Under the pieces are notes generated by a model. It worked only from the letters and a program-made list of their open reading frames with translations, was not told where the DNA came from and made no database searches. A DNA stretch of 45,221 nucleotides, from positions 1-45,221 of the forward strand of contig JAGVVW010000049.1 of assembly GCA_018304635.1 (NCBI GenBank). Direction: 5' to 3'. A program made the translations under genes and the position numbers. The stretch comes from Candidatus Aenigmatarchaeota archaeon (GTDB lineage Archaea > Aenigmatarchaeota > Aenigmatarchaeia > GW2011-AR5 > JACRMX01). Of the stretch, positions 2,726 to 39,625 are shown in pieces (position 1 is the stretch's first letter; every line of letters starts with the position of its first letter).

Positions 2726-3126
2726 CATTTCCCATGATAAACCAGACAGTTGCAATAGCTCTTGGAATCGTAATGATATTTTCAGTGTTCGCTGTTATAG
2801 GCCATTTAAAAAACGAATACGGGAAATTTGCAGAGGAAAATGAAGCGAGAGCTGTCTGCAAATCTGTAAAAAATACTATAGAATTGTATTCATATGAAAG
2901 CTACAGCAACACTACAACAGGTTATATAATAATAGATCTGCCTGAAAAAATAGCAGGCGGTCCTTACGATATTTTTACATCAGGAAGAACTATTACTGTA
3001 AACGGAAACAACGTAACTTCATGTAATGTAACACAGTCTATTGCAATGTCAGGAAAAACCAGCGGCGGCAGAACATGGATAGAAACTTTCAGCAATAACA
3101 CGGCAAAGATAGGAAAGGTGATTTAA
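2722..3126 (+). CDS. Small pilin-like protein
   Basis: This 134-residue protein starts at an ATG overlapping the previous stop (ATGA). One hydrophobic helix (residues ~8-27) is followed by a charged amphipathic stretch (HLKNEYGKFAEENEARAV) and a short beta-rich, sequon-bearing C-terminal domain. This is the lollipop layout of type IV pilin-like subunits. Two Cys (in AVCKSV and TSCNVT) could form a disulphide. Its TAA overlaps the next ATG by one base (TAATG), a typical coupled junction. No family assignment beyond pilin-like. Confidence 0.65.
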   Translation: MTFPMINQTVAIALGIVMIFSVFAVIGHLKNEYGKFAEENEARAVCKSVKNTIELYSYESYSNTTTGYIIIDLPEKIAGGPYDIFTSGRTITVNGNNVTSCNVTQSIAMSGKTSGGRTWIETFSNNTAKIGKVI

Positions 3127-3866
3127 TGGCAAACCAGCTGGATTATATAGTAGCAACAGGAATTTTTTTATCTGTGATCGGATATATTTTTCTGTTTACT
3201 ACAAATTATTTGGAATCGACACAGGAAGATGTTAAATTAAGCCATCTGCGACTTCAATCCATGTCCATGCTTGAGCTCAAAGACATGGACATTGTTTCAA
3301 ATCATTATACTTTCTGGATTATTTTAATAAATAACCAGTCTCATATGTTAGGCGAAAGCATATTAAACAATTTTGAAAATGAGCTGGTTGAAATAAATTT
3401 CACGCGTCTGGGATTAGATGTATCAAAAATCAATTCTACTATAATATATAACGGGACAGAACAAATTTCATATAATTATACCAGCGACAGAATATTATTT
3501 GTAACTGCAATAAATCAGAATGAAGTCAAAAGATTTTTTGTGCGAATTACGCAGAGCAACATAACATTTTCCCCCGTTTCTATATTAGGATATAAAAATA
3601 ACATAACAGAAACATTTACACTACCATGGACATCCGAAGCAATAACATACAAGTCTGTTCAAAATATCAATAATTACACTACATTGAAAAATTATATCGG
3701 TGCAGACCGCTTTCATATGGATTTATATTTCAATAATACGAAAATACTCGACTTTGGCGATACTCTGCCAAAAGAAGGAGATATAATATCCCTCAGGAAA
3801 TTCTATATGGTCCAGAACAGCACAGGTGCGTGGGAAAGAGGATATGTGGTGATACAAACATGGTAA
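3126..3866 (+). CDS. Single-pass surface protein of pilin-like operon
   Basis: This is a 246-residue protein whose ATG shares a base with the preceding TAA. The N-terminus 'MANQLDYIVATGIFLSVIGY' gives a short polar head followed by a hydrophobic helix (residues ~8-25). The remainder is extracellular, with many sequons (NQS, NFT, NST, NYT, NIT, NNT) and a beta-rich character. The short polar head plus helix is common in archaeal pilin-like proteins that lack a classical signal peptide. It overlaps the next gene by 7 nt. The function is not recognised; context suggests a subunit of the same surface assembly. Confidence 0.65.
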   Translation: MANQLDYIVATGIFLSVIGYIFLFTTNYLESTQEDVKLSHLRLQSMSMLELKDMDIVSNHYTFWIILINNQSHMLGESILNNFENELVEINFTRLGLDVSKINSTIIYNGTEQISYNYTSDRILFVTAINQNEVKRFFVRITQSNITFSPVSILGYKNNITETFTLPWTSEAITYKSVQNINNYTTLKNYIGADRFHMDLYFNNTKILDFGDTLPKEGDIISLRKFYMVQNSTGAWERGYVVIQTW

Positions 3867-4240
3867 AGGCATATCTCTATACTATAGAATTAATGATAAC
3901 ACTATCAATTGTGTTTCTGATAATTACATTTGTATTTAATGCTCCATCTTTCAGGCCGGACTTTGGAAAAAATGTTATAAAGAAATCCATAATTAATTCA
4001 GCCGAGTATATGTATTACAATGATGAACTGAGAAAATTTATGGAAAACAATAATGAAAGCCTTGTTGAAGCTAGAATTATTCAGATGGTTCCAGATACCA
4101 TAACTATAGAAGTTTCAGACAATTGTGATACAGCCAACCTGCCCCAGTTTTTAGATGTCTACAGAGTAAAGTATTATATTGCAGGCTATCAGGAAAGGTA
4201 TTTCTTTAAGCGCATATGCATTTCAGGGTGGGAGCAATGA
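3860..4240 (+). CDS. Small pilin-like protein
   Basis: The start chosen is ATG 3860 (126 residues, beginning MVKAYLYTIELMITLSIVFL), which overlaps the previous stop by 7 nt and follows a GGTGAT motif. An upstream in-frame ATG at 3830 would add residues that only read the previous gene in another frame. One hydrophobic helix (residues ~10-30) is followed by a small exported domain with two Cys near the C-terminus (DNCDTANL and RICISGW). The last codons overlap the next start (ATGA). It is pilin-like by layout; no family name is assigned. Confidence 0.65.
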   Translation: MVKAYLYTIELMITLSIVFLIITFVFNAPSFRPDFGKNVIKKSIINSAEYMYYNDELRKFMENNNESLVEARIIQMVPDTITIEVSDNCDTANLPQFLDVYRVKYYIAGYQERYFFKRICISGWEQ

Positions 4241-4824
4241 AAGGACAGATGTTTTTAATAGCAGGCATTATTCTGCTGCTTGGAATAATAACACTGGCAA
4301 ATATTATGAATATTTACAGTGTTTTTGAAGAAATGCGGCATACAGAAGCTTCTGATATGAACTATCGAGTTGACAATATTGCACGGGAATATGAATACAT
4401 GATATCAGCCATGTCCTCACAATCACAAATAAATTCAAACAACATCAGGAGCTTTACTGAAAATATAACCCAGTATGAAGATGTAGAAATATTTTTCCTT
4501 CTTGCCTATGCAAATAATTCAGATTATACTATGTGGGCAGGAAATTACCTTAAAGACAGTATAAACTTCACAGCAAACATGAGTTACAGTATAATACCCG
4601 ATTGGAATATTTTTCTGGATGACAAGTCCGTTTCTTTTATAATTAATAATGCAACCATTACAGATATAGAAATCAATATTTCATATACTCTGAATAATGA
4701 AAATGAAAAACAAAGCCTTCCTATGAGAATCACAAACAATTCAATCATAGGATTTTTTGACGTACGCCTGAATGAGAATGATAATTTTGCAAAAAAAAGA
4801 ATTTTTGTAAACAGGACGTGGTAA
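4237..4824 (+). CDS. Pilin-like protein with MKGQ-type N-terminus
   Basis: The start chosen is ATG 4237, giving MKGQMFLIAGIILLLGIITL. A GGGTGGGAG ribosome-binding site precedes it and the ATG overlaps the previous stop (ATGA). An ATG at 4216 in frame lies inside the previous gene and is rejected. The short K/G/Q head directly followed by a hydrophobic helix resembles archaeal class III signal peptides, whose peptidase cuts next to a Q at the head-helix junction; this is inference. The exported part has many sequons and no recognisable domain. Length is 195 residues. Confidence 0.65.
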   Translation: MKGQMFLIAGIILLLGIITLANIMNIYSVFEEMRHTEASDMNYRVDNIAREYEYMISAMSSQSQINSNNIRSFTENITQYEDVEIFFLLAYANNSDYTMWAGNYLKDSINFTANMSYSIIPDWNIFLDDKSVSFIINNATITDIEINISYTLNNENEKQSLPMRITNNSIIGFFDVRLNENDNFAKKRIFVNRTW

Positions 4825-4834
4825 AATACATCCA

Positions 4835-5494
4835 TTGGTATCAATAGCGATAGTAATCGCAGCATCGATAGTAGCCATAACTATAGTACTCAATATAGGA
4901 TTGCCTGTTGTTAATACAGCATTGAATGATTACAGCATAAAAAAAAGTGCAGCATTGATGCATGTTATGGATAATTATATGGAAGAAGTTATGAATGAAG
5001 AATCTGGGTCGATAAGAGAGCTGGATGCAGTCAATGATGCGGGTGATATAAGAATAAATTCCGAGACAAATAGTATTGAAGCAAACCTTAAAATTTTTAC
5101 AACTGACTATGGAAGATTTGTGAAGCAGGGAATAATGCATATCTATGGCAGTGATGTATTCTGCGATGATACAGGAAACATAACAATGGAAAACAGTGCA
5201 GTAAAAATAATTTTCAGAAAGTCTGTTAATTCTGTTGATACCTCTCAAATTATTATAAATATGACTGAAAAGAGAAGCGGTGATGTTATAAGTTTTACCA
5301 ATAGCTCTGTAATTATAGATAGTAATGAATCCAGTGTATCAGGCTCAGGGTATACAGAACTTCTTGAGTCAGGGAGCAATATGCCTCTTTGTGTGCTGCA
5401 TGCAAAAATAAACTCAACCCTGAGCTATGATGTTTTTTATACTTTATATGCAGGTGCTGACTTTATTGAAATAAGGGTGGAGAATATAACTTGA
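4835..5494 (+). CDS. Pilin-like membrane-anchored surface protein (paralogue of the gene at 1534)
   Basis: This is a 219-residue protein with a probable TTG start at 4835. No ATG or GTG lies in the frame between the previous stop region and the hydrophobic helix, and the ribosome-binding site is weak (GGTAA), so an ATA at 4826 is also possible. The helix (VSIAIVIAASIVAITIVL) and the C-terminal region (GYTELLESG, then NSTLSYDVFYTLYAGADFIE) match the gene at 1534, showing an internal duplication. It is the last gene of the surface operon. About 300 bp without genes follow, with an ACAATGAA/TTCATTGT inverted repeat near 5497-5537 that may mark the transcript end. Confidence 0.65.
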   Translation: MVSIAIVIAASIVAITIVLNIGLPVVNTALNDYSIKKSAALMHVMDNYMEEVMNEESGSIRELDAVNDAGDIRINSETNSIEANLKIFTTDYGRFVKQGIMHIYGSDVFCDDTGNITMENSAVKIIFRKSVNSVDTSQIIINMTEKRSGDVISFTNSSVIIDSNESSVSGSGYTELLESGSNMPLCVLHAKINSTLSYDVFYTLYAGADFIEIRVENIT

Positions 5495-12050: not shown

Positions 12051-12719
12051 CTATTCTCCCAGTCCGTCCTGCGTTATTAAGAATTCCACGCGCCTGTTCT
12101 CCGGGATTGAACGATGCTTTCTTACAATTGCTGCGCGCCTGTTTTCATTATTTATATGTATAATTTCAACCAGAGTCCGTGACCAGAAGCGGGCTATGTT
12201 TTTGGATGTGATTTCAGTATTGCCGTCTTCAATGTTTGTGTAAACCTGGCTAGTCACAATAACTGGAATATTGTGTTTTCTGGCTATGTTTGAAAGTATT
12301 GAATACTGTGTTGCGAGTTGCCTGTTTATTTTTGTATAATTTTCCTGCGTGATTTCAAGGCGGTAAAGAGCTGCAATTGAATCAATTATAATCAGGCCTA
12401 TGCCGGACATTTCTTTTTTGCTTATATCTTCCAGATATCTGCATTGCTCGTTCCATGATTCCGGTTCAATAAATAAAATATTTTTTAAGTCGTCATGATT
12501 TCCGCCAACCTGACAAAACCTTTCAAATGAAAAAGAGCTTTCAGTGTCCATGTAAATTATTTTTTTCCCAAGCCTGAGGCATTTTAGGGCAGAAAGCAGG
12601 GCAATGTTTGTTTTTCCAGAGCCTGCGTCTCCGTAAATATTTGTAATCGCGCCATTTTCAGCCCCGCCATTTAATAACTCGTCAATTACAGGGTGGATGC
12701 TCAGTCTTCCTCTTATCAT
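12051..12719 (-). CDS. radB: DNA repair and recombination protein RadB
   Basis: This 222-residue protein is about the usual RadB length. It lacks the N-terminal domain of RadA and starts directly before the ATPase core. Walker A is 'GDAGSGKTNIALLSAL' (residues ~29-44) and Walker B is 'GIGLIIIDSIAALYRLE'. The segment 'VTSQVYTNIEDG' fits the RecA/KaiC-like L1 region. RadB is a RadA paralogue found in euryarchaea and related lineages that assists homologous recombination. It sits 5 nt downstream of a Cas4-like nuclease gene on the same strand. Confidence 0.85.
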   Translation of the reverse strand: MIRGRLSIHPVIDELLNGGAENGAITNIYGDAGSGKTNIALLSALKCLRLGKKIIYMDTESSFSFERFCQVGGNHDDLKNILFIEPESWNEQCRYLEDISKKEMSGIGLIIIDSIAALYRLEITQENYTKINRQLATQYSILSNIARKHNIPVIVTSQVYTNIEDGNTEITSKNIARFWSRTLVEIIHINNENRRAAIVRKHRSIPENRRVEFLITQDGLGE

Positions 12720-14127: not shown

Positions 14128-14184
14128 GTCAGATTTTTGGAAAATTTGACAAATAAAAAGAAAGGTTAGAAAGGTATCTTGTCT

Positions 14185-15312
14185 ATGGTAAGAAAAGATA
14201 AACATAAGCATCATACAGACTCTGTTAAATCAGATGAACACAAAGATCATGCTGTTACGCAGAGTTCAGATTACGAACATAAACCTGATACATCAGGAAA
14301 AAGAGATTTTAACTTATGGATGCCATTAGCAATAATTTTTGCCTTGCTTTTTATAGGGGCTATGGGTGTTCTTCTCTCAAAGCCAGTTGAATCTGATTCT
14401 GCATTGGATGTTATTTCTGAAAAAGTTATTGATTATGTAAACAATAATCTGGTTGAACAAGGCACTAAAGCGACTGTGAAGTCAGTGGAACAGATGAATG
14501 GTATTTACAAAATTGTTTTAACATATCAAGCACAGGACATACCAGTTTACACTACAACTGACGGGCAATACATATTCTTGAGCCAACCTTTGAATACGAG
14601 TACGCCAATAGATCGCGGACAGAGTGAGACGCAGAAGAATTTTGATGCGCCTGATGTTGAAAAGCCGAATGTAAAATTATTTGTAATGTCCTTCTGCCCA
14701 TATGGGCATCAGGCTGAAAAAGGAATTGTCCCTGTAATATCTTTTCTTAAAAATAAAATTAATCCTGAACTGCATTATGTGATTTATGGAAAAGAATATT
14801 GCAATAATCTGGTTTCAGCTGGATACTATTCAGATATCGAAACATGCCAGGCAAAAAACTGCATGAATGGCACATCATATTGTTCAATGCATGGAATATC
14901 TGAATTAAACGAAGATGTGCGCCAGTTATGTATAACAAAAATTTACAGTTCAGATACACTGTGGTCATATGTTCTTCAGATTGCAGACAGGTGTTCTTCA
15001 GTCAATGTAGATACATGTTGGAAGCCTGTTGCAGAAAGTGTTGGCATAGATACAGATAAGATTGAACAATGTTTCAATACAGAAGCAAAGATGCTGATTG
15101 AATCTGAAGCAAAACTCAATGAAAAATATGTTGTTTCAGGCTCACCTACAATATTCATCAATGAAGAGCCATATGAAGGCAGCCGCAGCGCAGATGCATT
15201 TCAGCAGGCAATCTGTTCAGGTTTTGTAACAATGCCTGAAGAATGCAGCCAACAAATTCAGGAATCTGATCCTTCCACAGCAGCACCATCAGGCGGGTGC
15301 GAAGTGCAGTAA
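14185..15312 (+). CDS. Membrane-anchored thioredoxin-fold (DsbA-like) protein with His-rich tail
   Basis: The start chosen is ATG 14185; an in-frame TTG at 14179 is possible. Residues 1-45 are cytoplasmic and rich in His, Lys and Asp (KHKHHTDSVKSDEHKDH), resembling a metal-binding tail. A membrane helix follows (LWMPLAIIFALLFIGAMGVLL), then an exported region. The thioredoxin-like domain begins at 'KPNVKLFVMSFCPYGHQAEK'. The active site is CPYG, so the second Cys of CXXC is missing. A cis-Pro loop is seen at 'VVSGSPTIFINEEPYEGSR'. Many other Cys are present, and the C-terminus ends SGGCEVQ, whose Cys could act as the partner thiol. The role is likely disulphide exchange on secreted proteins. 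Confidence 0.7.
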   Translation: MVRKDKHKHHTDSVKSDEHKDHAVTQSSDYEHKPDTSGKRDFNLWMPLAIIFALLFIGAMGVLLSKPVESDSALDVISEKVIDYVNNNLVEQGTKATVKSVEQMNGIYKIVLTYQAQDIPVYTTTDGQYIFLSQPLNTSTPIDRGQSETQKNFDAPDVEKPNVKLFVMSFCPYGHQAEKGIVPVISFLKNKINPELHYVIYGKEYCNNLVSAGYYSDIETCQAKNCMNGTSYCSMHGISELNEDVRQLCITKIYSSDTLWSYVLQIADRCSSVNVDTCWKPVAESVGIDTDKIEQCFNTEAKMLIESEAKLNEKYVVSGSPTIFINEEPYEGSRSADAFQQAICSGFVTMPEECSQQIQESDPSTAAPSGGCEVQ

Positions 15313-15447
15313 AAAATTTATGTATGAAATTAAAGAAGAATTTCACGGACCAATCAGCAAGCGTTAGCAGGCAACAGAAATTCAAAGTATTTCAGAGGCA
15401 GAAAACCCGATTCTGTGTGTTAAATAATTTTTTATTCAATTCTAATT

Positions 15448-16059
15448 ATGGTTATTTCAGTTGCGCAACCATACGAAGATTTGGATAAAAAGGATTATGA
15501 CATACTCTTTGAGGGAATCTATACAAGATATGAAGGCAAGATATTCAATGTCATATATCGCTTATTATCTGGAAATGTAGATGATCCTTATACAGAAGCA
15601 CAGGATATTATGCAGGATGTTTTTGTGGCTTTTTATAAAAAAGGACTTCACAATTTCCGGGATGAAGCTGATCCTGGCACATATCTTTATACGATGGCTC
15701 TCAACAGGGTGAGAAATCATGTCAAAAGGCTTAGAAAAATTAGAATCTATTCATTTACTGATTTAGCTAGTTTTCCTGTGTCTGGTTTTGATTACGATGG
15801 AGAAATAGATTTCCCTGATGAAACCAGCCTTACACCGGAATTATCTGCGGTTCAATCTGAACTTGGAAATGTTGTTCATGGAGCACTATCTCATTTACAT
15901 CCTGAATATAGAGAAGCAATTGTTCTCGTGGATTTACAGCAACTTTCTTATATAGAGGCAGCTGCTGCAGCTGGCATAACTATACAATCCCTAAAATCAC
16001 GGCTGCATAGAGCACGGGAAGATCTCAGGGAATTATTAAGGCCTTATGTTGAGGCATGA
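15448..16059 (+). CDS. ECF-type RNA polymerase sigma factor (sigma-70 family)
   Basis: This 203-residue protein matches the bacterial extracytoplasmic-function sigma layout. Region 2 is residues ~20-95, with 'AQDIMQDVFVAFYKK' and 'DPGTYLYTMALNRVRNHVKR', the core-binding and -10-recognition helices. A linker follows, then region 4 at ~145-200 with 'LHPEYREAIVLVDLQQLSYI' and the helix-turn-helix 'GITIQSLKSRLHRAREDL'. Such proteins direct bacterial RNA polymerase to promoters. Archaea use TBP and TFB instead, so this gene is out of place. Both neighbours are archaeal in character, and no clear anti-sigma factor is beside it. Acquisition by transfer is inferred. Whether it binds the archaeal polymerase clamp helices or acts only as a DNA-binding protein is unknown. 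Confidence 0.85.
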   Translation: MVISVAQPYEDLDKKDYDILFEGIYTRYEGKIFNVIYRLLSGNVDDPYTEAQDIMQDVFVAFYKKGLHNFRDEADPGTYLYTMALNRVRNHVKRLRKIRIYSFTDLASFPVSGFDYDGEIDFPDETSLTPELSAVQSELGNVVHGALSHLHPEYREAIVLVDLQQLSYIEAAAAAGITIQSLKSRLHRAREDLRELLRPYVEA

Positions 16060-16114: not shown

Positions 16115-16225
16115 TTAGTCAAAATCATTTCCCAATTCACTGTAAATGAAGTATAAAATCACGCCTTTATATTGGTCTGGCCATTTCTCACGGCCCGACA
16201 AATCCACAACTACATTTGTATTCAT
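16115..16225 (-). CDS. Possible small protein overlapping the zinc-ribbon gene
   Basis: A 36-codon frame (ATG at 16223-16225) reads through 'LSGREKWPDQYKGVILYFIY' to TAA. Residue composition looks protein-like, and it overlaps the end of the zinc-ribbon gene by 38 nt in another frame. A GTG at 16205-16207 would give 30 residues. It could instead be a frameshifted tail of the zinc-ribbon gene, or chance. Confidence 0.25.
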   Translation of the reverse strand: MNTNVVVDLSGREKWPDQYKGVILYFIYSELGNDFD

Positions 16226-16343
16226 TACTCTTCTGGCGGCATTCTTTGCATCGCAAAATAATGTTTTCTATGCATGACGGGCATTTGAACTTGCTGAAAT
16301 TTGGTTCAGACTTTAAATTTTTGTTGCATGATAAACATTTCAT
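16188..16343 (-). CDS. Small archaeal zinc-ribbon protein
   Basis: The start chosen is the ATG at 16343, giving 51 residues beginning MKCLSCNKNL; an upstream ATG adds 12 residues that do not fit the family. Four CXXC-type knuckles are present (CLSC, CPSC, CKEC, CSC) with the ending 'EYKCSCGFVGP', typical of small archaeal zinc-ribbon proteins thought to bind RNA and act in translation. A TATA-like TTTAAATATTTT lies about 25 bp upstream, so the mRNA is probably leaderless. Confidence 0.7.
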   Translation of the reverse strand: MKCLSCNKNLKSEPNFSKFKCPSCIENIILRCKECRQKSNEYKCSCGFVGP

Positions 16344-16438
16344 AATTAAGATAGTTCTGCTGAAAATATTTAAAGGCAATTATGACAGAGACATTATTGT
16401 GTTCAAATATTAATGTCTCTGAATATAAATTATGAACT

Positions 16439-17125
16439 ATGAAAGCAATACTTTTGGTTTTTCTTATTTTAATAACAGTACCTGTCTTTATTACTCATGC
16501 TGAGAAATATTATGCTGATATTAATATTGATGTGAAAGACACGGGGATTTTAAAATTCAGCGGCATTACAAATCATCCTATGCTTAAGGGTGAAAGTGGA
16601 AATTATACATCAAAGAAAGGCGAGGTCTGGCTTATCAATATAACGCTTGGAAATTTTTCTGATTATGTATACAGAATAACCCTTCCTGAAAAGGCCTCTG
16701 TTAATTATATCAGATCAAACAGCCGTTTTAGAATAGAAACTGACGGCAGGCTAACAATTATAGGCACAGGGAAAACCGAACTTTCAATCATAATTCAATA
16801 TACGATAAAAAACCAAAATATTGATTATTTTCCTACTGCTATAGCAATCACATCAGTCTTAATTATTATAACTGCTGTTTTGCTAATCAGAAAAAAGAAA
16901 AAAGCCATCAATGTAAAATATAATGAAACTATTCTGACAGAAAGGCAGAAAATGATAGTTAACATGCTTGAAAAAGGGCATGTTACACAGAGTTATCTGG
17001 AAAAAAATCTTTCTATTCCAAAATCATCTTTATCCAGAAATATAAGGTCACTGGAAAGAAAAGGAATAATAAAAAAGTACAAAAAAGGCATGAGCAACGT
17101 AATAGAGCTTAAAAAGGAGGAGTAG
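16439..17125 (+). CDS. Membrane-anchored winged-helix transcription regulator
   Basis: This 228-residue protein has four parts. First is a signal peptide (residues 1-21, ending THAEK). Second is an extracellular beta-rich domain (~22-125) with sequons. Third is a single membrane helix (FPTAIAITSVLIIITAVLLI, ~130-150) followed by a basic stop-transfer stretch. Fourth is a cytoplasmic winged-helix domain: 'LTERQKMIVNMLEKGHVTQS', then 'IPKSSLSRNIRSLERKGIIK'. This is the layout of archaeal one-component regulators that sense an outside signal and bind DNA inside. The target is unknown; neighbours at 17340 and 18901 encode secreted proteins and are candidates. Confidence 0.8.
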   Translation: MKAILLVFLILITVPVFITHAEKYYADINIDVKDTGILKFSGITNHPMLKGESGNYTSKKGEVWLINITLGNFSDYVYRITLPEKASVNYIRSNSRFRIETDGRLTIIGTGKTELSIIIQYTIKNQNIDYFPTAIAITSVLIIITAVLLIRKKKKAINVKYNETILTERQKMIVNMLEKGHVTQSYLEKNLSIPKSSLSRNIRSLERKGIIKKYKKGMSNVIELKKEE

Positions 17126-20654: not shown

Positions 20655-21389
20655 ATGAGGCTTTTGATTGATCTGAATCCGTCTAAAAATTATGCAAATG
20701 ATCCCAAATATCATAATAAATTGCAGGGTTTCATTTACAAAATTCTTAAGAAATCCGAATACAAGCCTCTCCATGACAAGAAAGGCTGCAAATATTTCTG
20801 CTTTTCCAATATTTTTCCCGGGAAGGAAATGAACGAAGGTGATGTAAAGCATTTTATGATATCGTCCCCGGATAAACTCATGATTCATGTTATAAAGCAG
20901 GGTATAGAAAAAATGAAAGAGATAAACATAGGTGAAATGCAGTTTTCTCTGGAAGCTGTAAAAGAAATAAGTCCCAGAATAAGTGAAAATTGTGTTATAA
21001 AAACTTCAACGCCAATAATAATAAGGATACCACAGTATCGTTATACTGAGTATGGAATAAATTCCCAGTATAGCTGTGTCTTCTGGAAGCCTGAGCACGA
21101 TTTCAACGCATTCCTGAAGCAGCTTTCGGAGAATGTCATCAAAAAATATAACGAGTACAATAAAACAGAGATAAAAGAGCATCCTGTTTTCCAGCAGTTC
21201 GCGTTTGACGGTTCATATCCCATCCATACCATAATAGACCAAAGAGAGCAGATAATGATAGGTAGCTACTGGAAGTTCATATTTGAAGGTATGACCAAGG
21301 AACAACAAGAGCTTTTGCAGTTTGCATTAGACTGCGGCTTTGGTGAGCTGAACAGTTTGGGATTTGGATTTGTGAATGTTATTAAATAA
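20655..21389 (+). CDS. cas6: CRISPR endoribonuclease Cas6
   Basis: This 244-residue protein is of normal Cas6 size. It has the two-ferredoxin-fold layout and the C-terminal Gly-rich loop 'DCGFGELNSLGFGFVNV', the best Cas6 marker. His residues near the N-terminus (around residue 40, PLHDKKG) could act in catalysis. It cuts the CRISPR transcript within the repeat, leaving an 8-nt 5' handle, here expected to be AUUGAAAU from the repeat end. It is transcribed from its own promoter and separated from cas8b by the MntA/HepT-like locus. Confidence 0.85.
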   Translation: MRLLIDLNPSKNYANDPKYHNKLQGFIYKILKKSEYKPLHDKKGCKYFCFSNIFPGKEMNEGDVKHFMISSPDKLMIHVIKQGIEKMKEINIGEMQFSLEAVKEISPRISENCVIKTSTPIIIRIPQYRYTEYGINSQYSCVFWKPEHDFNAFLKQLSENVIKKYNEYNKTEIKEHPVFQQFAFDGSYPIHTIIDQREQIMIGSYWKFIFEGMTKEQQELLQFALDCGFGELNSLGFGFVNVIK

Positions 21390-21450
21390 AAACATTGCAA
21401 TCAAATACCTCATGTATTTTGAATATAATAAAAAAGTATAAGCGGTAAAA

Positions 21451-21744
21451 ATGAAAGATTTAAAACAAATTCAGTCAATATTGTCAAAACATAAAGAAGA
21501 ATTAAGAAGAGAATATGATGTTAAACATATTGGAATATTCGGTTCTTATGTTAGAGGAGAGCAAAAGAAATCAAGCGATATTAATATTTTAGTGGAATTT
21601 GAAAAGCCTATTGGATTTTTCAAGTTTCTTGAATTGGAAGAAAATATTGGCAAGCTCCTTGGAATTAAGGTAGATTTAGTCACTAGAAACGCTTTGAAGC
21701 CAAGAATAGGACAGTACATCCTTAAGGAAGTGGTTGCGGTATGA
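21451..21744 (+). CDS. mntA: MntA-like nucleotidyltransferase antitoxin with altered active site
   Basis: This 97-residue minimal nucleotidyltransferase has 'HIGIFGSYVRGEQKKSSDIN' at residues ~28-45. The family motif is GSX10DXD; here the second Asp is Asn45 (AAT at 21583-21585 instead of the usual GAT), while Asp43 is kept. The rest ('LVEFEKPIGFFKFLELEENI' and 'KVDLVTRNALKPRIG') is canonical. MntA proteins AMPylate the partner HepT toxin to silence it. Loss of one metal-binding Asp should weaken or abolish this. It overlaps the HepT frame by 4 nt. Confidence 0.8.
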   Translation: MKDLKQIQSILSKHKEELRREYDVKHIGIFGSYVRGEQKKSSDINILVEFEKPIGFFKFLELEENIGKLLGIKVDLVTRNALKPRIGQYILKEVVAV

Positions 21745-22103
21745 AACGGGAATATGGAGATTATATTCAGGACATAATCGATTCAATAAAAGAAACTGAG
21801 GAATTTATAGGAAAATTGTCATTTGACGATTTCAAGAAAGATAAAAAAACTGTGAATGCTGTTATACGAAGCCTTGAAATAATGGGCGAAGCTGCAAAGA
21901 AGATTCCTGATGATATCCGTAAGAAACATTTTCAGATCCCTTGGAAAGAGATGGCTGGAATTAGAGATAAGCTTATACACTAATATCACGGAGTTGATAT
22001 TGAAATAATCTGGAAGGTTATAAAGGAAGAGCTACCTCCAGTAAAGCCATTTGTATTAAAACTTTTTAAGGAATTTGAACACAAGAGGAGCGATACGAAA
22101 TGA
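21741..22103 (+). pseudogene. hepT: HepT-like HEPN toxin interrupted by an in-frame stop
   Basis: The frame encodes a DUF86/HepT-like HEPN protein of 120 codons, but codon 81 is TAA (21981-21983). Translation before it ends 'EMAGIRDKLIH', which contains the RX4H RNase motif; after it the same frame continues 'YHGVDIEIIWKVIKEELPPV' to TGA at 22101-22103. The family motif RX4HXY is thus split exactly at X: His80, stop, Tyr82. A single change (for example GAA to TAA) explains it. A truncated 80-residue product would keep the catalytic His but lack the modifiable Tyr and the last helices. Confidence 0.8.
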
Positions 22104-22182
22104 ATACCATTTATTGTAGATAAACACAATCTGCCAAAAGAAATCCAAGAAACACCGCAGGATAATAACAAATCAAAGGGAC

Positions 22183-22344
22183 ATGAAAGAAAATCCTGAT
22201 ACAAACGAAGGAATGACAGTGATAATGAATAAGTTCATGTTCAAAGGCGACTGGAACGAGCAACTACGCTGGACGGAGAAGCACGGAACGAAGGACGATG
22301 TTGAAGTTGTGAGAAGGGAAATGGGAGGAGTTGGAAAATGCTAA
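22183..22344 (+). CDS. Possible small protein or gene remnant before cas8b
   Basis: A 53-codon frame contains 'KFMFKGDWNEQLRWTEKHGT' and overlaps the cas8b start (ATGCTAA). Just upstream, the frame continuing from the hepT remnant (22104-22197) also looks protein-like ('PFIVDKHNLPKEIQET'). The two could be pieces of one decayed gene joined by a frameshift near 22180. No family is recognised. Confidence 0.3.
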   Translation: MKENPDTNEGMTVIMNKFMFKGDWNEQLRWTEKHGTKDDVEVVRREMGGVGKC

Positions 22345-24128
22345 AACAGATGATTGAGTTTGCACAGAAATACCCCGAAAGAGTATGGAATGAAACAAGA
22401 CTTGAAAATCATCTTAAAATGAAGAAAAGAAATTTCTTCTTCGCGGTTTATGCAAGTAACTTAAAATACAAAGAATCTAGTGTTGTCGGCATAGAAAATC
22501 CATTTCCGGAAGAAAAGAATATGTCAAAAAAATTTGTCAATTTGGAAAAATGGATGAAAGAGAATAAAAGATTTATTAAGTATACAGAGTTCTCGATGTA
22601 TAGGAAACCCACAGGAAGCCACAATTCTTGTATAGGAGGTGTATATGGACTTGGAACTGTCTGCCTTTCACACTTTCAACTAGAGGAGTATTCAGAGGAG
22701 TATTCAAAGATAAAACCTATTTTCAGGCTGAAAGATAGGAAACGCCAAAAAAATAAAATTTTCGAAGTTTTCAACAGACGCATTAGTAAACATGTCACAA
22801 ATATAAATGATCAAATAGTGAAAGAAAAAAATATAGACAGGGAGGCACTACGCAAATTGTACGAAGATTTTTTCAATGAATTAATAAAAGAAATGCCCGA
22901 AGAGTCATTAGAACAAATATTCAAACATGAAGTCGTAATTTTCGATGACAAGATATTGGGAATAAAACAAGAAGGAAAAACCCAAAAAAATGAAGACGAA
23001 GAATCATTTGAAATGCCAAAATATTTCAACGTCCAAAAAGTAGAAAAAAAACCATTTGTAATATACTCTAGAACCCGCCCCAATAAACAAAACTTGTTGA
23101 TATCAGAAGACGAACAAAAAAGATTACATGAATTTATGACTAAAATACTTCCTGATACCGGACCGCTTTTCATTCTGCCTTTGGATGAAAAACTTCAGAA
23201 TAAAATGGCTGAAAACATAGCGTTTAACGAAAAAAATTTCTTCAAAACCGTAGAAAATTTATTTGGAGAATATAAAGAAGGGAAATTTGATTTTTATTTT
23301 GTAGACATAAGAAACGAAAAAATTCAATTTTTTGATTATGTTTCCAATTACCACTATTTTTTTCACGATCTTTTTCACGATGTTTTTCCTTTGGGTAGAG
23401 TCAAAAAACAAACACCGTTTGAATTTAATAGAAAGGATCTTAATGAAATTTTTTCTAAGATATTGGGTCAAAAGAACAACATTCTATGCCTTCCGTGGGT
23501 CGATCCTCCAAAAAACATGAATACTTCAAAGAAGTCGGCATATATTCATCTGCGGGAAAAAATGTTCGAAACAATGTATCTTGGAAAAACAGTATTGACA
23601 GAAACGGAAATAAAGAATCTGTGTCTCGTGTTAATTGAAGACAATATAATTAACGAAGATCGCAGTAAAATATGTGATATCTCCAATGATTGCTTAAACT
23701 TTTTTGCAAACTCTTATTTATTTATACTTGGGGGTGAGAATATGAGTATGGACAATTTAATAACAAAAGCAGAAAAAATTGAGAAGCAGGTAATAAATAA
23801 GGAGTTTAAACCGACTGATAAAGAATCTGGATTCTATCTATTGGGAATGCTGCTCAAAAAACTATGCGAGAAATCCGAAACGTCTAATGAAAAATCAAGG
23901 CTTTTACAACCAGTAATAAATACTCACACTTTTATAGGACTTAATAGGGTTGTTGTCACAAAGTTTGTGGAAAAATACGCATATAAAATAGAAGAAAAAG
24001 ACGAAGAAACAGCGGAACTTATGAATAAGGTTCTGCCGTTTCTTGCAGAACAAAACGGAGAAGAATCCATTAAAGATTTCAAACTATGGCTTTATGCCGG
24101 TTTTTTTTCCAATAATCAAAAGGGGTGA
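22338..24128 (+). CDS. cas8b: Cas8b, large subunit of type I-B Cascade
   Basis: This 596-residue protein starts at ATG 22338 after a GGAGGA ribosome-binding site. Size and position directly before cas7, cas5 and cas3 identify it as the Cas8b/Csh1 large subunit, which recognises the PAM and stabilises the crRNA-DNA duplex. Sequence conservation in this family is low. Visible features are mixed helical regions and paired Cys, for example 'SCIGGVYGLGTVCLSHF' and 'DRSKICDISNDCLNFF'. The stop overlaps the region of the cas7 start (GTGA at 24125-24128), giving coupled translation. Confidence 0.8.
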   Translation: MLKQMIEFAQKYPERVWNETRLENHLKMKKRNFFFAVYASNLKYKESSVVGIENPFPEEKNMSKKFVNLEKWMKENKRFIKYTEFSMYRKPTGSHNSCIGGVYGLGTVCLSHFQLEEYSEEYSKIKPIFRLKDRKRQKNKIFEVFNRRISKHVTNINDQIVKEKNIDREALRKLYEDFFNELIKEMPEESLEQIFKHEVVIFDDKILGIKQEGKTQKNEDEESFEMPKYFNVQKVEKKPFVIYSRTRPNKQNLLISEDEQKRLHEFMTKILPDTGPLFILPLDEKLQNKMAENIAFNEKNFFKTVENLFGEYKEGKFDFYFVDIRNEKIQFFDYVSNYHYFFHDLFHDVFPLGRVKKQTPFEFNRKDLNEIFSKILGQKNNILCLPWVDPPKNMNTSKKSAYIHLREKMFETMYLGKTVLTETEIKNLCLVLIEDNIINEDRSKICDISNDCLNFFANSYLFILGGENMSMDNLITKAEKIEKQVINKEFKPTDKESGFYLLGMLLKKLCEKSETSNEKSRLLQPVINTHTFIGLNRVVVTKFVEKYAYKIEEKDEETAELMNKVLPFLAEQNGEESIKDFKLWLYAGFFSNNQKG

Positions 24129-24133
24129 AATGT

Positions 24134-25048
24134 ATGAATAAAAGAAAATTCGAAAATTGGGCAGTAGGCATATCTGTTGTACGTTCTATAAACGGAAATT
24201 TCAATGCAGACATATCAAAGATGCCAAGAACACTTCCAGACAAATTGGGAACGATATATGCGACTGACAAGGCACTCAAATATTGCATTAGAAGCTATTT
24301 AGTGAATGTCAAGAAAGAAAAGATTTTTATGTGGAGAAGACAAAACGAAAAAATAAAACCATTAAACATAGATCAAAATTTTAAAATATTGTTTGAAAAA
24401 AATCCTACGGAAATTGAAAGAGAAGAAATACTTAAAAATCTGCTTAGTTGTGTGGATGTCAGACTTTTTGGATGTACATATGCTGGAAAAAACAATAATA
24501 TTTCAATACACGGAACTACGCAAATTTCATATGGGATAAATGGCATTCAAGAAAATCAGGTTTACTCAAATCAAATATTAAGTCCTTTCCAAAACTTGAA
24601 GAAAGATGATACAACTCAAACAAGTATGGGCGATGAATCAAAGGCTCTTGACGTCTGTTATGTTTATGACTACAATATAAACCCAAATAACATTGGTCCA
24701 GAGAATGCCCAGAGACTGGCTGAGGACGACGTTGAAATATTCAAAGAAGCTTTGTGCAATGGAGTAAATAGTGTCAATACAACAACAAAAATCGGCTCGG
24801 AAACATTGCTAGTAGCTTATGTAGAATTAAGCAAGCCAAAAATGCTGCAAAATCTAAAAAAGCTTATTGAGATATCAAAAAACGAAGATGGAAACCTCAG
24901 TATCGATATAACTAATATGATAAAATACTTAAAGAAATTCGACAGCGACATAGTAAAAACACAAATTTTCTACGAAAAAGAGAAAACAAATCTTGTAAAT
25001 AAAGAAAAATGGAACAAACTTGAAGAAGTAGATTTGTTAGCCAAATAA
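24134..25048 (+). CDS. cas7: Cas7 (Csh2), crRNA-binding backbone of type I-B Cascade
   Basis: The start chosen is ATG 24134, because GGGGTGA (24122-24128) sits at proper spacing; a GTG at 24125 in frame would overlap that site. The 304-residue product has the Cas7/Csh2 features 'VVRSINGNFNADISKMPR' near the N-terminus, 'LLSCVDVRLFGCTYA' and 'TQISYGINGIQENQVYSNQI' in the middle, and 'IGSETLLVAYVELSKP'. Multiple copies form the helical backbone along the crRNA spacer. Confidence 0.85.
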   Translation: MNKRKFENWAVGISVVRSINGNFNADISKMPRTLPDKLGTIYATDKALKYCIRSYLVNVKKEKIFMWRRQNEKIKPLNIDQNFKILFEKNPTEIEREEILKNLLSCVDVRLFGCTYAGKNNNISIHGTTQISYGINGIQENQVYSNQILSPFQNLKKDDTTQTSMGDESKALDVCYVYDYNINPNNIGPENAQRLAEDDVEIFKEALCNGVNSVNTTTKIGSETLLVAYVELSKPKMLQNLKKLIEISKNEDGNLSIDITNMIKYLKKFDSDIVKTQIFYEKEKTNLVNKEKWNKLEEVDLLAK

Positions 25049-25061
25049 ATGGTGTGATCGA

Positions 25062-25814
25062 ATGAATAGAACACTGCAGATTTTAATCAGTTCTGATTTT
25101 GCACTCTTCAAAAAGAATGATAGCAATGAGTTTGCTCTTACATATAATTTCCCTCCAAAACCCCAGATTCTCGGATTATTAGGAGCGATTATTGGTCTTT
25201 CCGGGTACTCTAAAAATGAAAAGAAAGTCGATTTTTATGAAAAACTCAAAAACTTTAAAGTAGCCATAGTACCGTTAGATGAAAATAATCAGCCTGTTAT
25301 AGAGCCACCAAAAAAGACAGTCATAACGTATAACAATTATCATGGTTATGGTAGTATGGAAGAGGGTGGTATATTGCAGATAAGGGAGCAAGTATTGATT
25401 GGACCGAGATACAGAATATTTATTGTAGGAAAGGGAAAATATTACGATGAATTGAAAAAGAAGCTTGAATCACAGGAGTATTTCTATACACCTTACTTAG
25501 GAAAAAATGAGTTTTTTGCTGTGGTTCAATATGAAGGAGAAAAAGAAGCAACTAAAGTAACTGGAGGGACTGAAAAAATTTCAAGTATTTTCCTAAAAGA
25601 CTATGGAAAAATTTTACTTTCAGGATTTGGAGAAAGAAACAGACCACGATTTGTTATTGTTGAAGATTATCCTGTCTCATTTGACACAAATTACTTTTAT
25701 CAAAAAAAGTTTGTCATATATTGTGATGGTGTACAAATCATCAACTATGAAAAAATTGAGAAAGATGGCTTCGAAATATGTAAAATTGAAGATCAGATTC
25801 TTTTTTTCATTTGA
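25062..25814 (+). CDS. cas5: Cas5 (type I-B), crRNA 5'-handle binding subunit
   Basis: This 250-residue protein has the Cas5 N-terminal strand 'TLQILISSDFALFKKND' and 'YNFPPKPQILGLLGAIIGLS', the motif common to Cas5 proteins (P..P...G...A..G), plus 'QIREQVLIGPRYRIFI'. It caps Cascade at the 5' handle of the crRNA. It lies 13 nt after cas7 and 18 nt before cas3. Confidence 0.85.
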   Translation: MNRTLQILISSDFALFKKNDSNEFALTYNFPPKPQILGLLGAIIGLSGYSKNEKKVDFYEKLKNFKVAIVPLDENNQPVIEPPKKTVITYNNYHGYGSMEEGGILQIREQVLIGPRYRIFIVGKGKYYDELKKKLESQEYFYTPYLGKNEFFAVVQYEGEKEATKVTGGTEKISSIFLKDYGKILLSGFGERNRPRFVIVEDYPVSFDTNYFYQKKFVIYCDGVQIINYEKIEKDGFEICKIEDQILFFI

Positions 25815-25832
25815 TTCTAAGGAGTGCCAATT

Positions 25833-28505
25833 ATGACATTAGAAACTTTGATTGCATACGATGAAATATTCGCTAAAGAATTTCTTGAAAAGATATACGC
25901 TCGCAAAGATAAAGACCAGCCTGACAAATATGAAACTCTGGAAGAACATAGTATCAGAACTCTTGCAAAAGCAAATGAAATAATATCTAAACTTCAACTC
26001 GGATCTATTTTGACTAAATTAAACCATAATTTATACAAAGAATTCGAATCTATTGAAGATGAAATAACAGAAGAAGATTTTAACTCAATTATGAAAAAAC
26101 TTCTTGCAACTATTATTTACTTGCATGATATAGGAAAAGTGAATAAACAATATCAAACCAAACGTCTCGGGAATTATCTGAAAGGCATTGATGGTTTTGT
26201 AGATTCTTGGCACAGTGCTTATGGACATATGCTAATAAACCAACTCTTATTTTCTGAAAGACAGAACACCATCTTTAGGAAAAGCCATAAACTTGGATTC
26301 TGCGCTATTGTGCTTACAACAATAGTTAATAGGCATCACACACCATTACTTGACATGGAGATCCCATCTACATATCATAGTAGTAGGAACATTTGGGATA
26401 ATAATGTTAAACACTTAAACGATAACATAAAAGGTCTCGAAAATACATGCAAACAGTCTATTTTATTATTAGATGATTTTGATAAAAAAATCGAAAAGGA
26501 TATTGAAGCCATTTATTCTGACTACTTAGAAGAGATGGGTAAAATTCCCAGTAGTATGTTCTTCATATATAAGCTATGGTACTCTATTCTTGTTCAATCG
26601 GACTGTTTTGCGGCTGAGTTGTTTTCCAAATCAGATTCAAAAATCAATTTCATTGACAAAGAACTGGCAGAAGAACTACAAAATGAATTTCATTCTAGAA
26701 AGTCGTATAACGTTGGGTTAGAAGAAAAGAAGTATCTCTTGAGTTCACCGATAGAAAATATTCAGGACATAGATGATCTTAGAACAAGAATACTCATAGA
26801 AGCATCAAAAACACTTCAAGAAACAATTAAGAAAGATGAAGAAAAAAGAATCTTTTATATAGATGTTCCAACAGGTGGCGGGAAAACGAACATATCAATA
26901 AAGCTTGCACTTGATCTCGTGAAAAGAAAAAATCTCGTTAGAATAAATTATGTGTTTCCATTCATAAACATTATAGAACAAAACCATGAAGAAATAGAAG
27001 CAACGCTTGGTCAGACGAACAAGGATACAGTATCAAAAATATATTCATTTTCAGACTGGGGTATAGAAAATGAAACAGAAGATGAGAATTTTAAACTCGG
27101 AAATCAGAGATTCTTGAATTATCCAGTAAATGTAATAACCAACGTAAATTTTTTCAATATCTTCCTCAAAAGCTCGAAAAAAGCTACAATGAAAACATTG
27201 GAACTGTGCAATAGTGTTGTAATACTCGATGAAATACAATCATTACCAAACAAAAAGTGGATTTATTTTGTGACATTGTTAAATAAAATTTCCAAATTAT
27301 ACAATATATATTTCATTATAATGAGTGCAACCTTACCAGACTTGAAGTTGCTGCTAAGCAAAGATGAGAAGAAAGAATTCGATTCCATTGACCTCATAGA
27401 GCAACCCGAAAGCTATGCTAAACATCGTTTGATGAAACGTGTTACTTACGAAATAAATAAAGATGCAGATCCCGAGCAGGAAATTTGTCAAATTCTTGAT
27501 GTATACAAAAGGCTCCTGACCAATAGAGCTTACAAAAAAATATTGATTGTAGTTAATACAATTTCTGATAGTATAGAAATTTATAAAAAGATCGCAAAAC
27601 CCAAAAGATTCAAAACGTTCCTACTCAACTCTACTACCTTACCATATAAAAGAAAAGAAATAATCAATGAAATAAAATCAGGCGTTAATGTTATCTTAGT
27701 ATCCACCCAGTCTGTTGAAGCTGGAGTAGACATAGATTGTGATGTCGGTATAAGGTCTGATGCTCCCCTTGATTCTATAGAACAAATAGCAGGCAGGGTA
27801 AACAGGAATGGAAAAAAGTCAGTCGAATTGTCTAAGGTTTTTGTCGTTCCATCTAAATCGAAAAAGTATGTTTATTCTGGAGATATTCGTAATATGTATG
27901 ATATATCGGGAAAGAATGGTTTAGATTGTGAAACCCTTTTGATAAACAGGGATTTCAGTTCCTATTATATACAAATAATGGAACGCGCTTTACAAAGAGA
28001 GGATATGACAAAAGCAAACAAAACCGATCTTTTGGAACCTATGAATAATCTTGAATTTGACAAATTAAATCAACAAGATTACATAGAATCTAGAAGTTTC
28101 TCAATTTTCTTACCAGTGAAAATACCTTTAAAATATTTTGTTAACCTCATGAACTTTATTAAAGACAATAATCTTTCAAAAAATAGTTATTTGCATGGAA
28201 ATGACGTTTGGAAATTATATACAAGTAATAAATATGAAAATTTAATCAGAGGTAATGACCTTAAAAAACTTCAGTTGATAGTACAAAACTTCTGCGTTAA
28301 TCTCGTCGAACCACGAAGTTCAAAAAGTAGTTTGAGTTTTAGAGAATTTATAAAAAATACTTTGAAATTTAATTCCGAAAATGATGAAAGTATTCTGATT
28401 GCGGATGAGAACTTTATAAATAAATATTTTGATGAGAACATTGGTTTAGATATTCAAAAACTTAAAACAGATTTCAAAGAATTAGAAGATACGAACATAA
28501 TTTAA
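25833..28505 (+). CDS. cas3: Cas3, HD nuclease-helicase of type I-B
   Basis: The start chosen is ATG 25833, at good distance from AAGGAG (25819-25824); the upstream GTG 25824 overlaps it. The 890-residue protein has an N-terminal HD nuclease: 'EEHSIRTLAKANEI', then 'IIYLHDIGKVNKQY' and 'HSAYGHMLIN'. An SF2 helicase follows: motif I 'VPTGGGKTNISIKLAL', motif II 'VILDEIQSLPNK' (DEIQ), motif III 'IIMSATLPDL', motif V 'VSTQSVEAGVDIDCDVG', motif VI 'IEQIAGRVNRNG'. All catalytic motifs look intact. It unwinds and degrades target DNA after Cascade binding. It is the last gene of the interference operon. Confidence 0.9.
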   Translation: MTLETLIAYDEIFAKEFLEKIYARKDKDQPDKYETLEEHSIRTLAKANEIISKLQLGSILTKLNHNLYKEFESIEDEITEEDFNSIMKKLLATIIYLHDIGKVNKQYQTKRLGNYLKGIDGFVDSWHSAYGHMLINQLLFSERQNTIFRKSHKLGFCAIVLTTIVNRHHTPLLDMEIPSTYHSSRNIWDNNVKHLNDNIKGLENTCKQSILLLDDFDKKIEKDIEAIYSDYLEEMGKIPSSMFFIYKLWYSILVQSDCFAAELFSKSDSKINFIDKELAEELQNEFHSRKSYNVGLEEKKYLLSSPIENIQDIDDLRTRILIEASKTLQETIKKDEEKRIFYIDVPTGGGKTNISIKLALDLVKRKNLVRINYVFPFINIIEQNHEEIEATLGQTNKDTVSKIYSFSDWGIENETEDENFKLGNQRFLNYPVNVITNVNFFNIFLKSSKKATMKTLELCNSVVILDEIQSLPNKKWIYFVTLLNKISKLYNIYFIIMSATLPDLKLLLSKDEKKEFDSIDLIEQPESYAKHRLMKRVTYEINKDADPEQEICQILDVYKRLLTNRAYKKILIVVNTISDSIEIYKKIAKPKRFKTFLLNSTTLPYKRKEIINEIKSGVNVILVSTQSVEAGVDIDCDVGIRSDAPLDSIEQIAGRVNRNGKKSVELSKVFVVPSKSKKYVYSGDIRNMYDISGKNGLDCETLLINRDFSSYYIQIMERALQREDMTKANKTDLLEPMNNLEFDKLNQQDYIESRSFSIFLPVKIPLKYFVNLMNFIKDNNLSKNSYLHGNDVWKLYTSNKYENLIRGNDLKKLQLIVQNFCVNLVEPRSSKSSLSFREFIKNTLKFNSENDESILIADENFINKYFDENIGLDIQKLKTDFKELEDTNII

Positions 28506-28642
28506 TGGAAGCTTCAATACCAAGCGTCAGAAGCAATACTCATATAAAACCCAACAAAAAATTGTCCCAGCTAGACCTTGCCCTAATTCACGCATTCCTC
28601 AAACTCTACGCAAAAGACCAGTTAGTTACAGAGAGTATGTAG
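28505..28642 (+). CDS. Possible 45-residue protein coupled to cas3
   Basis: The ATG overlaps the cas3 stop (TAATG) and the frame runs 45 codons, ending 'LIHAFLKLYAKDQLVTESM'. Composition is protein-like, but no family is recognised. It could be a small accessory gene or the relic of an older gene that stood between cas3 and cas4 before the AbiE pair arrived. Confidence 0.3.
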   Translation: MEASIPSVRSNTHIKPNKKLSQLDLALIHAFLKLYAKDQLVTESM

Positions 28643-30756: not shown

Positions 30757-30757
30757 T

Positions 30758-37981: not shown

Positions 37982-39625
37982 TTACGTGTGTGCAAACACC
38001 AGCGAAACGCTTTTTGCACTGATTTTTTCAACCCTGCAGAATCCAAAGCTTTCCAGTTGAATCATCTGACCAGGCTTGGATTTTTTAATGCTGGGTTCAG
38101 CATATCCTTTGATTGTTGATTTTGACATTGCAATTTTAACTTCTACATTTGGCTTTGACAGCCAGTGTATTTTTGGCATGTTCTTTACTTCTTTTCCTGC
38201 ATATTTTGATTTTTCATTCAGGCGTATGTTGAATAAATCTTTCAGCCTGATTTCAAGGCCTTTGTATTTTTTAAAATCTTCCCGTTCAATATAGAGTGTT
38301 TTGCTGACAGAAATTTTTCTTGATCCTAGTTTTTTTATAGGATGATGCTGTAGTGTAATTGACCTGACTTTAGTTTTATCAATGGTTATTTCTTTCGGAT
38401 CCAGAATGAAAAAATATCTTCTGGCTTCTGCGTCAATTAATTTTCTATTGTATGCTGAAAGATTTTCCATTGAAACTGTGATATCATTTGGCTTCAGGCC
38501 TATATCCATAATTAATTTTCTTATAGCCTGAGGTTTGAATCCTCGCCGCTGCAAAGAGCGTATTGTTGCCAGATTCAGATCATCCCATCCGCCAAACTGA
38601 CCTTTTTCTACGCCTTTTCTTATAAGGCTTTTGCTCATAACCATATCAGAAACAGAAAACCTGCCAACAATGCTGGTAAAAGGGTAATTCCAGTTAAAAT
38701 ACTGGTAAATAAACCTTTGCTTTGATTCATTGGTTGAATGTTCCTGGCCCCGCAATATGTTTGTAATATTCAGGAGATGGTCGTCAATTGCAGATGAAAA
38801 ATTATAAAGCGGCCACAGGTGCTTTCTTACCAGCGGATGTTTTGGATGATCCACAATTCTCATTGCAGGCCAGTCACGTACAGCAGGGTTTTTTAATTCA
38901 AGATCGGTTTTTATTCTTAGAACAGCCTCGCCTTCTTTATATTCGTGGGTCAGCATTTTTTTCCATCTATTTTTTTGTTCTTTTGCATCAATCAACCTGC
39001 ATTGGCATGGCTTGGACTTCAGCACTAACTTTTTCCATTCATCTCCGCATGTACAAACATAAGCTTTTCCTTTATCAACTAATTCCTGTGCATATTTGTA
39101 ATATATAGGTAGTCTCTTGGATGAAATAACTTCCTTGTCCCATTTAATGTCAAGCCATTTGAGGTCTTCCTTAATCCATGCATAAAAATGCTTTTCAGGT
39201 GTTTTGACCTTCGGGTCAGTATCGTCAAAGCGAAGAATAAATTTCCCATTGTATTTTTTTCTGTACTCATCATTCAATATTGCAACTCGTATATTTCCAA
39301 TATGCAATGCTCCATCAGGATTTGGTGCAAAACGAACAACAAAAGCCCGCGAACGCTCAAGATTAGGCAGAACTTTTTTTTCTTTTTTCACTGGTTTCTT
39401 TTCATATCCTCCGAAAGATTCTATTGCTTTTTTCTGCTCCTTTGGCGACATCCGGTTTACCTGCATTGTATAAGAATCAATCATGTTTTTAATTTCAAAC
39501 AGCCTTTCCCTCAGTTCAGGATTCCCAGCCATTATTCTACCCAAAACACTTTTTGGCTGGCTAATGCCATTGTGCTCAGCAGCATTAATCAGCACCTGTT
39601 TTTTCACAGTTTCCTCAATATTCAT
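37982..39625 (-). CDS. gltX: Glutamyl-tRNA synthetase, archaeal type
   Basis: This 547-residue class I synthetase has an N-terminal archaeal extension (~100 residues), then 'RFAPNPDGALHIGNIRVAIL' (HIGH motif as HIGN), 'FDDTDPKVKTPEKHFYAWI', and the KMSKS loop as 'SDMVMSKSLIRKGV'. A C-terminal beta-barrel anticodon-binding domain follows ('YIEREDFKKYKGLEIRLKDL'), as in the archaeal/eukaryotic GluRS/GlnRS branch. It charges tRNA-Glu, and in archaea also tRNA-Gln for later amidation. It lies 53 bp upstream of rbcL on the same strand. A TAGGAGAAGG ribosome-binding site precedes it. Confidence 0.92.
   Translation of the reverse strand: MNIEETVKKQVLINAAEHNGISQPKSVLGRIMAGNPELRERLFEIKNMIDSYTMQVNRMSPKEQKKAIESFGGYEKKPVKKEKKVLPNLERSRAFVVRFAPNPDGALHIGNIRVAILNDEYRKKYNGKFILRFDDTDPKVKTPEKHFYAWIKEDLKWLDIKWDKEVISSKRLPIYYKYAQELVDKGKAYVCTCGDEWKKLVLKSKPCQCRLIDAKEQKNRWKKMLTHEYKEGEAVLRIKTDLELKNPAVRDWPAMRIVDHPKHPLVRKHLWPLYNFSSAIDDHLLNITNILRGQEHSTNESKQRFIYQYFNWNYPFTSIVGRFSVSDMVMSKSLIRKGVEKGQFGGWDDLNLATIRSLQRRGFKPQAIRKLIMDIGLKPNDITVSMENLSAYNRKLIDAEARRYFFILDPKEITIDKTKVRSITLQHHPIKKLGSRKISVSKTLYIEREDFKKYKGLEIRLKDLFNIRLNEKSKYAGKEVKNMPKIHWLSKPNVEVKIAMSKSTIKGYAEPSIKKSKPGQMIQLESFGFCRVEKISAKSVSLVFAHT

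Follow-up and report, generated by a model that had tools for sequence, protein, structure and literature searches.

The analysed window (the whole stretch of 45,221 nucleotides) carries on its forward strand an open reading frame that is complete at exactly 15448-16059, with an ATG start and a TGA stop. Its product (P0001), the genes beside it and the archaeal markers of the contig are as follows.

12051..12719, reverse strand: RadB, archaeal marker of the contig (TIGR02237, 194 bits, cut-off 172)
14179..15312, forward strand: membrane-anchored DsbA/thioredoxin-like protein, upstream neighbour (its family is matched in 17 of the 31 genomes of the order)
15448..16059, forward strand: P0001, ECF-type sigma-70 family protein, 203 aa (Pfam, NCBIfam, PDB hits, AlphaFold model, Foldseek)
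15517..15738, forward strand: sigma region 2, residues 24-97 (Pfam PF04542 Sigma70_r2, 1.7e-10; model)
15595..15618, forward strand: region 2.2 motif EAQDIMQD, residues 50-57 (alignment with RpoE and other ECFs)
15874..16026, forward strand: sigma region 4, residues 143-193, with the ECF-type recognition helix SLKSRLHRAR (Pfam PF08281 Sigma70_r4_2, 9e-12; structural match)
16188..16379, reverse strand: HVO_2753-type zinc finger (zinc-ribbon) protein, downstream neighbour (Pfam PF07754, 1.8e-13)
16439..17125, forward strand: protein with two hydrophobic segments and a C-terminal winged helix (DUF7343), downstream (its family is matched in 26 of the 31 genomes of the order)
37982..39625, reverse strand: archaeal-type glutamyl-tRNA synthetase (GluRS), archaeal marker of the contig (TIGR00463, 514.6 bits, cut-off 401.75)

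Both Pfam matches of P0001 exceed their curated cut-offs, and the NCBIfam model TIGR02937 (sigma70-ECF) matches it at 3.7e-22 with 78.7 bits against a cut-off of 42.9. The PDB sequence matches are sigma factors and the top ones are all of the ECF type (SigW 2.7e-15, AlgU/SigH 3.3e-15); E. coli sigma-E matches at 3.3e-12, and mycobacterial SigE is also among the closest relatives of solved structure. The AlphaFold model, built with 14 relatives (mean pLDDT 82.8), predicts a helical sigma2 domain (helices at residues 14-40, 47-72 and 76-99) joined by a disordered linker (about 100-128) to a helical sigma4 domain, the arrangement of helical sigma2, flexible linker and helical sigma4 that characterises the ECF fold. 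Its top Foldseek matches are ECF sigmas, and the sigma4 domain matches the structure of E. coli sigma-E region 4 with DNA (2h27) at a TM of 0.83; the whole-chain TM is low (about 0.3), in our reading because the linker leaves the two domains free. As in other ECF (sigma-70 group 4) proteins, regions 2 and 4 are present without regions 1.1 and 3. EAQDIMQD aligns as the counterpart of the DAED..Q core-binding motif, here EAQD..Q, with one acidic residue lost and D53 and Q56 kept. P0001 can be identified, far beyond chance, as an ECF sigma factor of the bacterial type that resides in an archaeal chromosome, and the complete region 2 and region 4 signatures that the sequence-only reading had seen in the 203 residues are borne out by Pfam, NCBIfam, PDB and the fold. 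With SigW, RpoE (sigma-E) and AlgU it shares the two domains, the core-binding motif region, the fold, an N at the -10-reading position and the region 4 recognition helix. It differs from them in sequence (identity about 24-35%), in having Y at position 79 in place of the conserved W of region 2 (RpoE W73), and in its setting, a host in which no bacterial core RNAP was found and a phylum in which no ZAS (zf-HC2) anti-sigma was found.

The archaeal nature of the contig is confirmed by RadB and GluRS, which score above cut-off; a RuBisCO large chain on the same contig scores just below the form III cut-off. The neighbours first described as a membrane thioredoxin-like gene and an archaeal zinc-ribbon gene proved to be just these (DsbA/thioredoxin-like and HVO_2753, the latter by Pfam). 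The assembly is a metagenome bin in 52 contigs, 88% complete with 0.72% contamination, and the genome was read in targeted stretches. A bin in so many pieces is what lends any plausibility to the idea that P0001 comes from a contig chimera, or from bacterial or phage contamination of the MAG. We rejected this explanation and regard it as barely credible, since the families flanking the gene on both sides belong to the same archaeal order, contamination is low, codon usage is host-like, and the three sigma genes of the genome sit on three separate archaeal contigs. Castelle et al. likewise excluded misbinning as the source of the sigmas they reported in DPANN (PMC8204110). When 53 genes of the genome were ranked by their fit to pooled codon usage, with 0 for the poorest and 52 for the best fit, P0001 ranked 36, which is host-typical, and the cas6 gene ranked lowest. 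The GC content of the gene is also in line with the host. Its codon usage makes a recent insertion unlikely.

Elsewhere in the window, positions 20655-31747 hold CRISPR-Cas genes (Cas6, Cas3 and Cas1) with an AbiEii-type toxin gene (29501-30283) within the cluster, and a 596-aa protein of this region (22338-24128) has no Pfam match. Positions 1534-5494 encode a series of proteins, most of them without Pfam matches; the products of 1534-2232 and 4835-5494 match one protein adjoining a sigma gene in another genome (G022, L051:5632-6312).

The identity first given to P0001 stands, but that description was incomplete, as P0001 is not a lone case. Two more sigma genes occur in the same genome, and the codon usage of each of the three is typical of the host (ranks 36, 48 and 52). 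The second is also an ECF and lies on a 9.5 kb contig beside eS6, aIF2-gamma and aIF5B, all above a cut-off. The third (L011:4677-5498) encodes 273 aa on a 14 kb contig (C52) that also carries FtsZ and aEF-2 genes, and is nearest to a SigB/F/G model, at 81 bits and thus under that model's cut-off of 234. The same contig carries a PP2C phosphatase gene with a weak SpoIIE match (L011:9166-10302), 3.7 kb from the SigB/F/G-like gene. In bacteria, sigmas of the SigB/F/G type are controlled via phosphatase-driven partner switching.

In the phylum, which in the sample used here equals the class (156 genomes of 0.4-1.9 Mb, a DPANN-like size range), region 2 was found in 29 genomes, in 25 of them above cut-off, and among the good-quality genomes in 5 of 39. 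Genomes so small would fit a DPANN phylum, though with 156 genomes returned it is doubtful that this is the group of the Woesearchaeota. The copies are patchily distributed, divergent and nearest to bacterial sigmas, some being partial or very divergent, and range from ECF types up to RpoD-like proteins that have regions 2, 3 and 4, one of them region 1.2 as well. In one protein of 359 aa (L060:2121-3200), Pfam recognises region 2 alone. An RpoD-like sigma gene lies between a TIM-barrel gene and TrpRS in the same order in two genera of one family:

L046:7498-11839 and L048:775-4770: conserved gene order TIM-barrel gene, sigma, TrpRS

Identity is 44% between the two sigmas and 74% between the TrpRS proteins, and region 2.2 is the best-conserved part of the sigma pair, with 14 of 20 residues identical. 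This shared gene order suggests vertical inheritance within archaea. No relative of P0001 was found in the nearest available genome (G023, 75% complete).

Clusters of sigma genes were also seen. A contig of an archaeal genome that is 95% complete (G119:C20, L047:7217-13994) has three sigma genes within 7 kb, one of them for a protein of 761 aa that contains regions 1.2, 2 and 4 and whose -10-reading residues are almost exactly those of RpoD, and three distinct, unequally diverged sigma-like genes stand in tandem on another (G120:C76, L053:3-2366). ECF sigma genes of three genomes in the order (L010, L013 and L015) lie next to or near aIF5B, aIF2-gamma, eS6 or EF-1alpha. We discarded this link of ECF and translation genes (C12, G019:C75 and G007:C15), which is striking by eye but was not significant in a rough estimate, given the many genes that could be picked.

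Transfer from bacteria is the natural origin of P0001, as had been proposed from the sequence, where the transfer was left as recent or old; the codon usage and the identities to relatives (16-35%) speak against a recent event. P0001 is 16-27% identical to the remaining sequences in the ECF alignment, and its identity to the bacterial ECFs examined reaches about 35%. For all 12 archaeal ECFs the best BLAST match in the compared set was bacterial or phage, with one near-tie, in a panel drawn largely from matches to P0001 and the second sigma of its genome (C12) and therefore biased towards that outcome. In the phylogeny that the sequence-only reading had called for, the tree is mostly unresolved, with the archaeal ECFs scattered and little support; a single origin of the archaeal ECFs is neither shown nor rejected (AU p 0.196). 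No close bacterial donor was found, one scan of genome contigs giving relatives at 24-27% only. A viral or plasmid source was rejected: no viral relative was found in viral contigs by the method used here, and plasmid and phage matches reach at most 38% identity among the matches listed. P0001 probably stems from an old transfer out of bacteria, separate from the events behind most other archaeal copies, and several independent, old acquisitions are the simplest reading for the archaeal sigmas as a whole.

Against this divergence, the positions that make contacts in bacterial sigmas are retained. P0001 D53, Q56, N86, R185, R188 and R190 are the kept equivalents of RpoE D48, Q51, N80, R173, R176 and R178, of which we take N80 and the region 4 arginines to act in promoter reading. 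Region 2.2 binds the clamp in bacteria, not DNA. When 12 archaeal ECFs were compared with 19 bacterial and phage ECFs, retention was 75% against 89% for the D, 75% against 79% for the Q and 83% against 89% for the N, and 92/82/91% against 68/84/84% for the three region 4 arginines, although identity to P0001 in the ECF alignment is low. In bacteria the holoenzyme cannot do without the negatively charged DAED motif of sigma2, which makes contact with the clamp helices of beta-prime (PMC8103513). The kept positions speak against mere decay and in favour of a use of both faces, the one for core binding and the one for DNA binding. Part of this conservation could instead reflect constraint on folding and descent from functional donors, and a conserved region 2.2 need not imply RNAP binding, because its residues may also support folding. 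That P0001 is a bacterial gene kept without important function and drifting to decay would fit the patchy distribution, its absence from the nearest available relative and the incomplete or strongly diverged copies in other genomes of the phylum; we nevertheless consider it improbable, as the reading frame is intact, the motifs are conserved, codon usage is host-typical and the genome has three separate sigma genes.

The transcription machinery of the host is archaeal, as had been supposed for the genome and its basal factors. The single Rpb1-type N-terminal domain belongs to an A' gene adjoining A'' and B, all archaeal, and a TFB of 351 aa has both cyclin repeats. No bacterial beta-prime was found in the genome at its 88% completeness. 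A hidden bacterial beta-prime was rejected as an explanation, since the sole Rpb1-type match is archaeal and A' is archaeal too in 22 related genomes with readable coils. Another MAG (G131) has Rpb1-type A' genes of two different kinds on two contigs (C3 and C121; L146 and L160), a sign that the bin may be mixed. The bacterial core RNAP with complementary clamp residues on which canonical ECF function depends was thus not found in this cell. TFB and TFE are the initiation factors of archaeal cells, TFE using the clamp coiled-coil (PMC7289017); P0001 differs from both, matching neither in Pfam or in the PDB sequence and structure searches, in a host that has its own TFB.

The clamp helices had been proposed as a surface shared by both domains of life on which the protein might act. 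The coiled-coil fold is indeed shared, but the residues that sigma contacts in E. coli are replaced, and alike in genomes with and without sigma genes. In a gap-free alignment of the coil, the E. coli beta-prime residues R275/E295/A302, at positions regarded as important for sigma-70 binding, are replaced by I/I/H in the A' of this genome. The second helix of the archaeal coiled-coil is acidic, and a comparison of 13 genomes of the phylum that carry sigma genes with 10 that do not finds the coil near-identical, with no consistent difference. Co-adaptation of polymerase and sigma is therefore not visible, and the archaeal polymerase has no sign of remodelling for sigma factors. As TFE and Spt4/5 bind the same coil (PMC7289017), a sigma contact there might compete with them.

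The mismatch between bacterial-type contact residues on the sigma and an archaeal polymerase without the partner residues could also mean that the target of P0001 is the RNA polymerase in a bacterial partner cell and lies outside the archaeon. We hold this to be very improbable, as no signal peptide or delivery feature is evident by eye at the N-terminus and no export machinery is linked to the gene.

No recognisable anti-sigma regulator was found. The zf-HC2 anti-sigma domain was found in none of the 156 genomes of the phylum, this one included; an RsbW-type HATPase was not found in this genome, and its occurrence elsewhere in the phylum does not match the sigma carriers, so that the known anti-sigmas were rejected as partners. 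A cognate anti-sigma near the gene is typical of ECFs, though not universal; here the neighbours are the DsbA-like, zinc finger and membrane winged-helix proteins, and the last (16439..17125) can be named as a candidate regulatory partner only as an unsupported suggestion. Orphan bacterial ECFs can be controlled through transcription alone (PMC8103513). The promoter motifs for which a search near the gene had been suggested did not emerge, two guessed ECF patterns having no match in the window and sigma-70-like sites nearby occurring at about chance level with no clear excess. The A/T-rich TTAAATAA at 15420-15427 could, weakly, be an archaeal TATA box of the sigma gene itself, in a genome that is very A/T-rich.

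Our leading explanation, held tentatively and at somewhat less than an even chance, is that P0001 is a DNA-binding regulator in contact with the archaeal polymerase, acting as an accessory factor alongside TBP/TFB. It would be promoter-selective: sigma4 and sigma2 would occupy a bipartite site on the DNA in the bacterial manner, and sigma2 would make a weak or altered contact with the RNAP clamp coiled-coil at the site also used by TFE and Spt4/5. P0001 may then recruit, help or block initiation at a few genes, supplementing and not replacing TBP/TFB, and would be controlled chiefly by its own expression, since no recognisable anti-sigma was found. In its favour, the two-domain ECF is complete by sequence and fold and keeps its contact residues, the three sigmas have host-typical codons, a syntenic pair exists, region 2 recurs in the phylum, no known anti-sigma was found, archaeal RNAP is the only core enzyme found, and TFE and Spt4/5 bind the clamp coiled-coil. 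The I/I/H clamp, its acidic helix and the lack of co-adaptation count against an accessory regulator, as do the negative promoter motif searches and the lack of a P0001 relative in G023.

The same polymerase side, not adapted to sigma, would suit a plain two-headed DNA-binding regulator that has kept the sigma fold and represses or activates without touching RNA polymerase. This is a possibility to be taken seriously, if one we lean against: the region 4 recognition helix is well conserved, no anti-sigma is recognisable (zf-HC2 phylum-wide, the RsbW type in this genome), and other sigmas of the phylum, such as the region 2-only protein above, seem to lack one domain, whereas the clamp-binding region 2.2 is conserved about as in bacteria and is the best-kept part of the syntenic pair. 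As a general statement, that archaea of this phylum use bacterial sigmas on their own RNAP via a changed clamp contact, with TBP/TFB and sigma coexisting, appears rather unlikely.

Sigma-70 proteins in DPANN archaea were already reported as fam00359, along with the presence of TBP and TFE in DPANN (Castelle et al. 2021, PMC8204110), so their occurrence is not new. In the passages of that paper dealing with them they resemble P0001, which shares its contig with archaeal genes and its genome with archaeal basal factors, in being bacterial sigma-70 proteins of archaeal MAGs that have archaeal transcription factors, and in that no anti-sigma was found. Those passages stress Woesearchaeota and do not describe ECF types, several sigmas per genome, contact residues or the polymerase clamp. 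Added here are the ECF type of P0001, the kept contact residues of the sigma, the unadapted clamp, the lack of any zf-HC2 match in the phylum and several sigma types in one genome. Promoter recognition is among the sharpest divides between bacteria and archaea, and a conserved sigma side facing an unadapted polymerase side poses the testable question of whether a sigma works on an archaeal polymerase or its fold has been repurposed, a question sharpened by the conflict between clamp and sigma and by the several sigma types in one genome.
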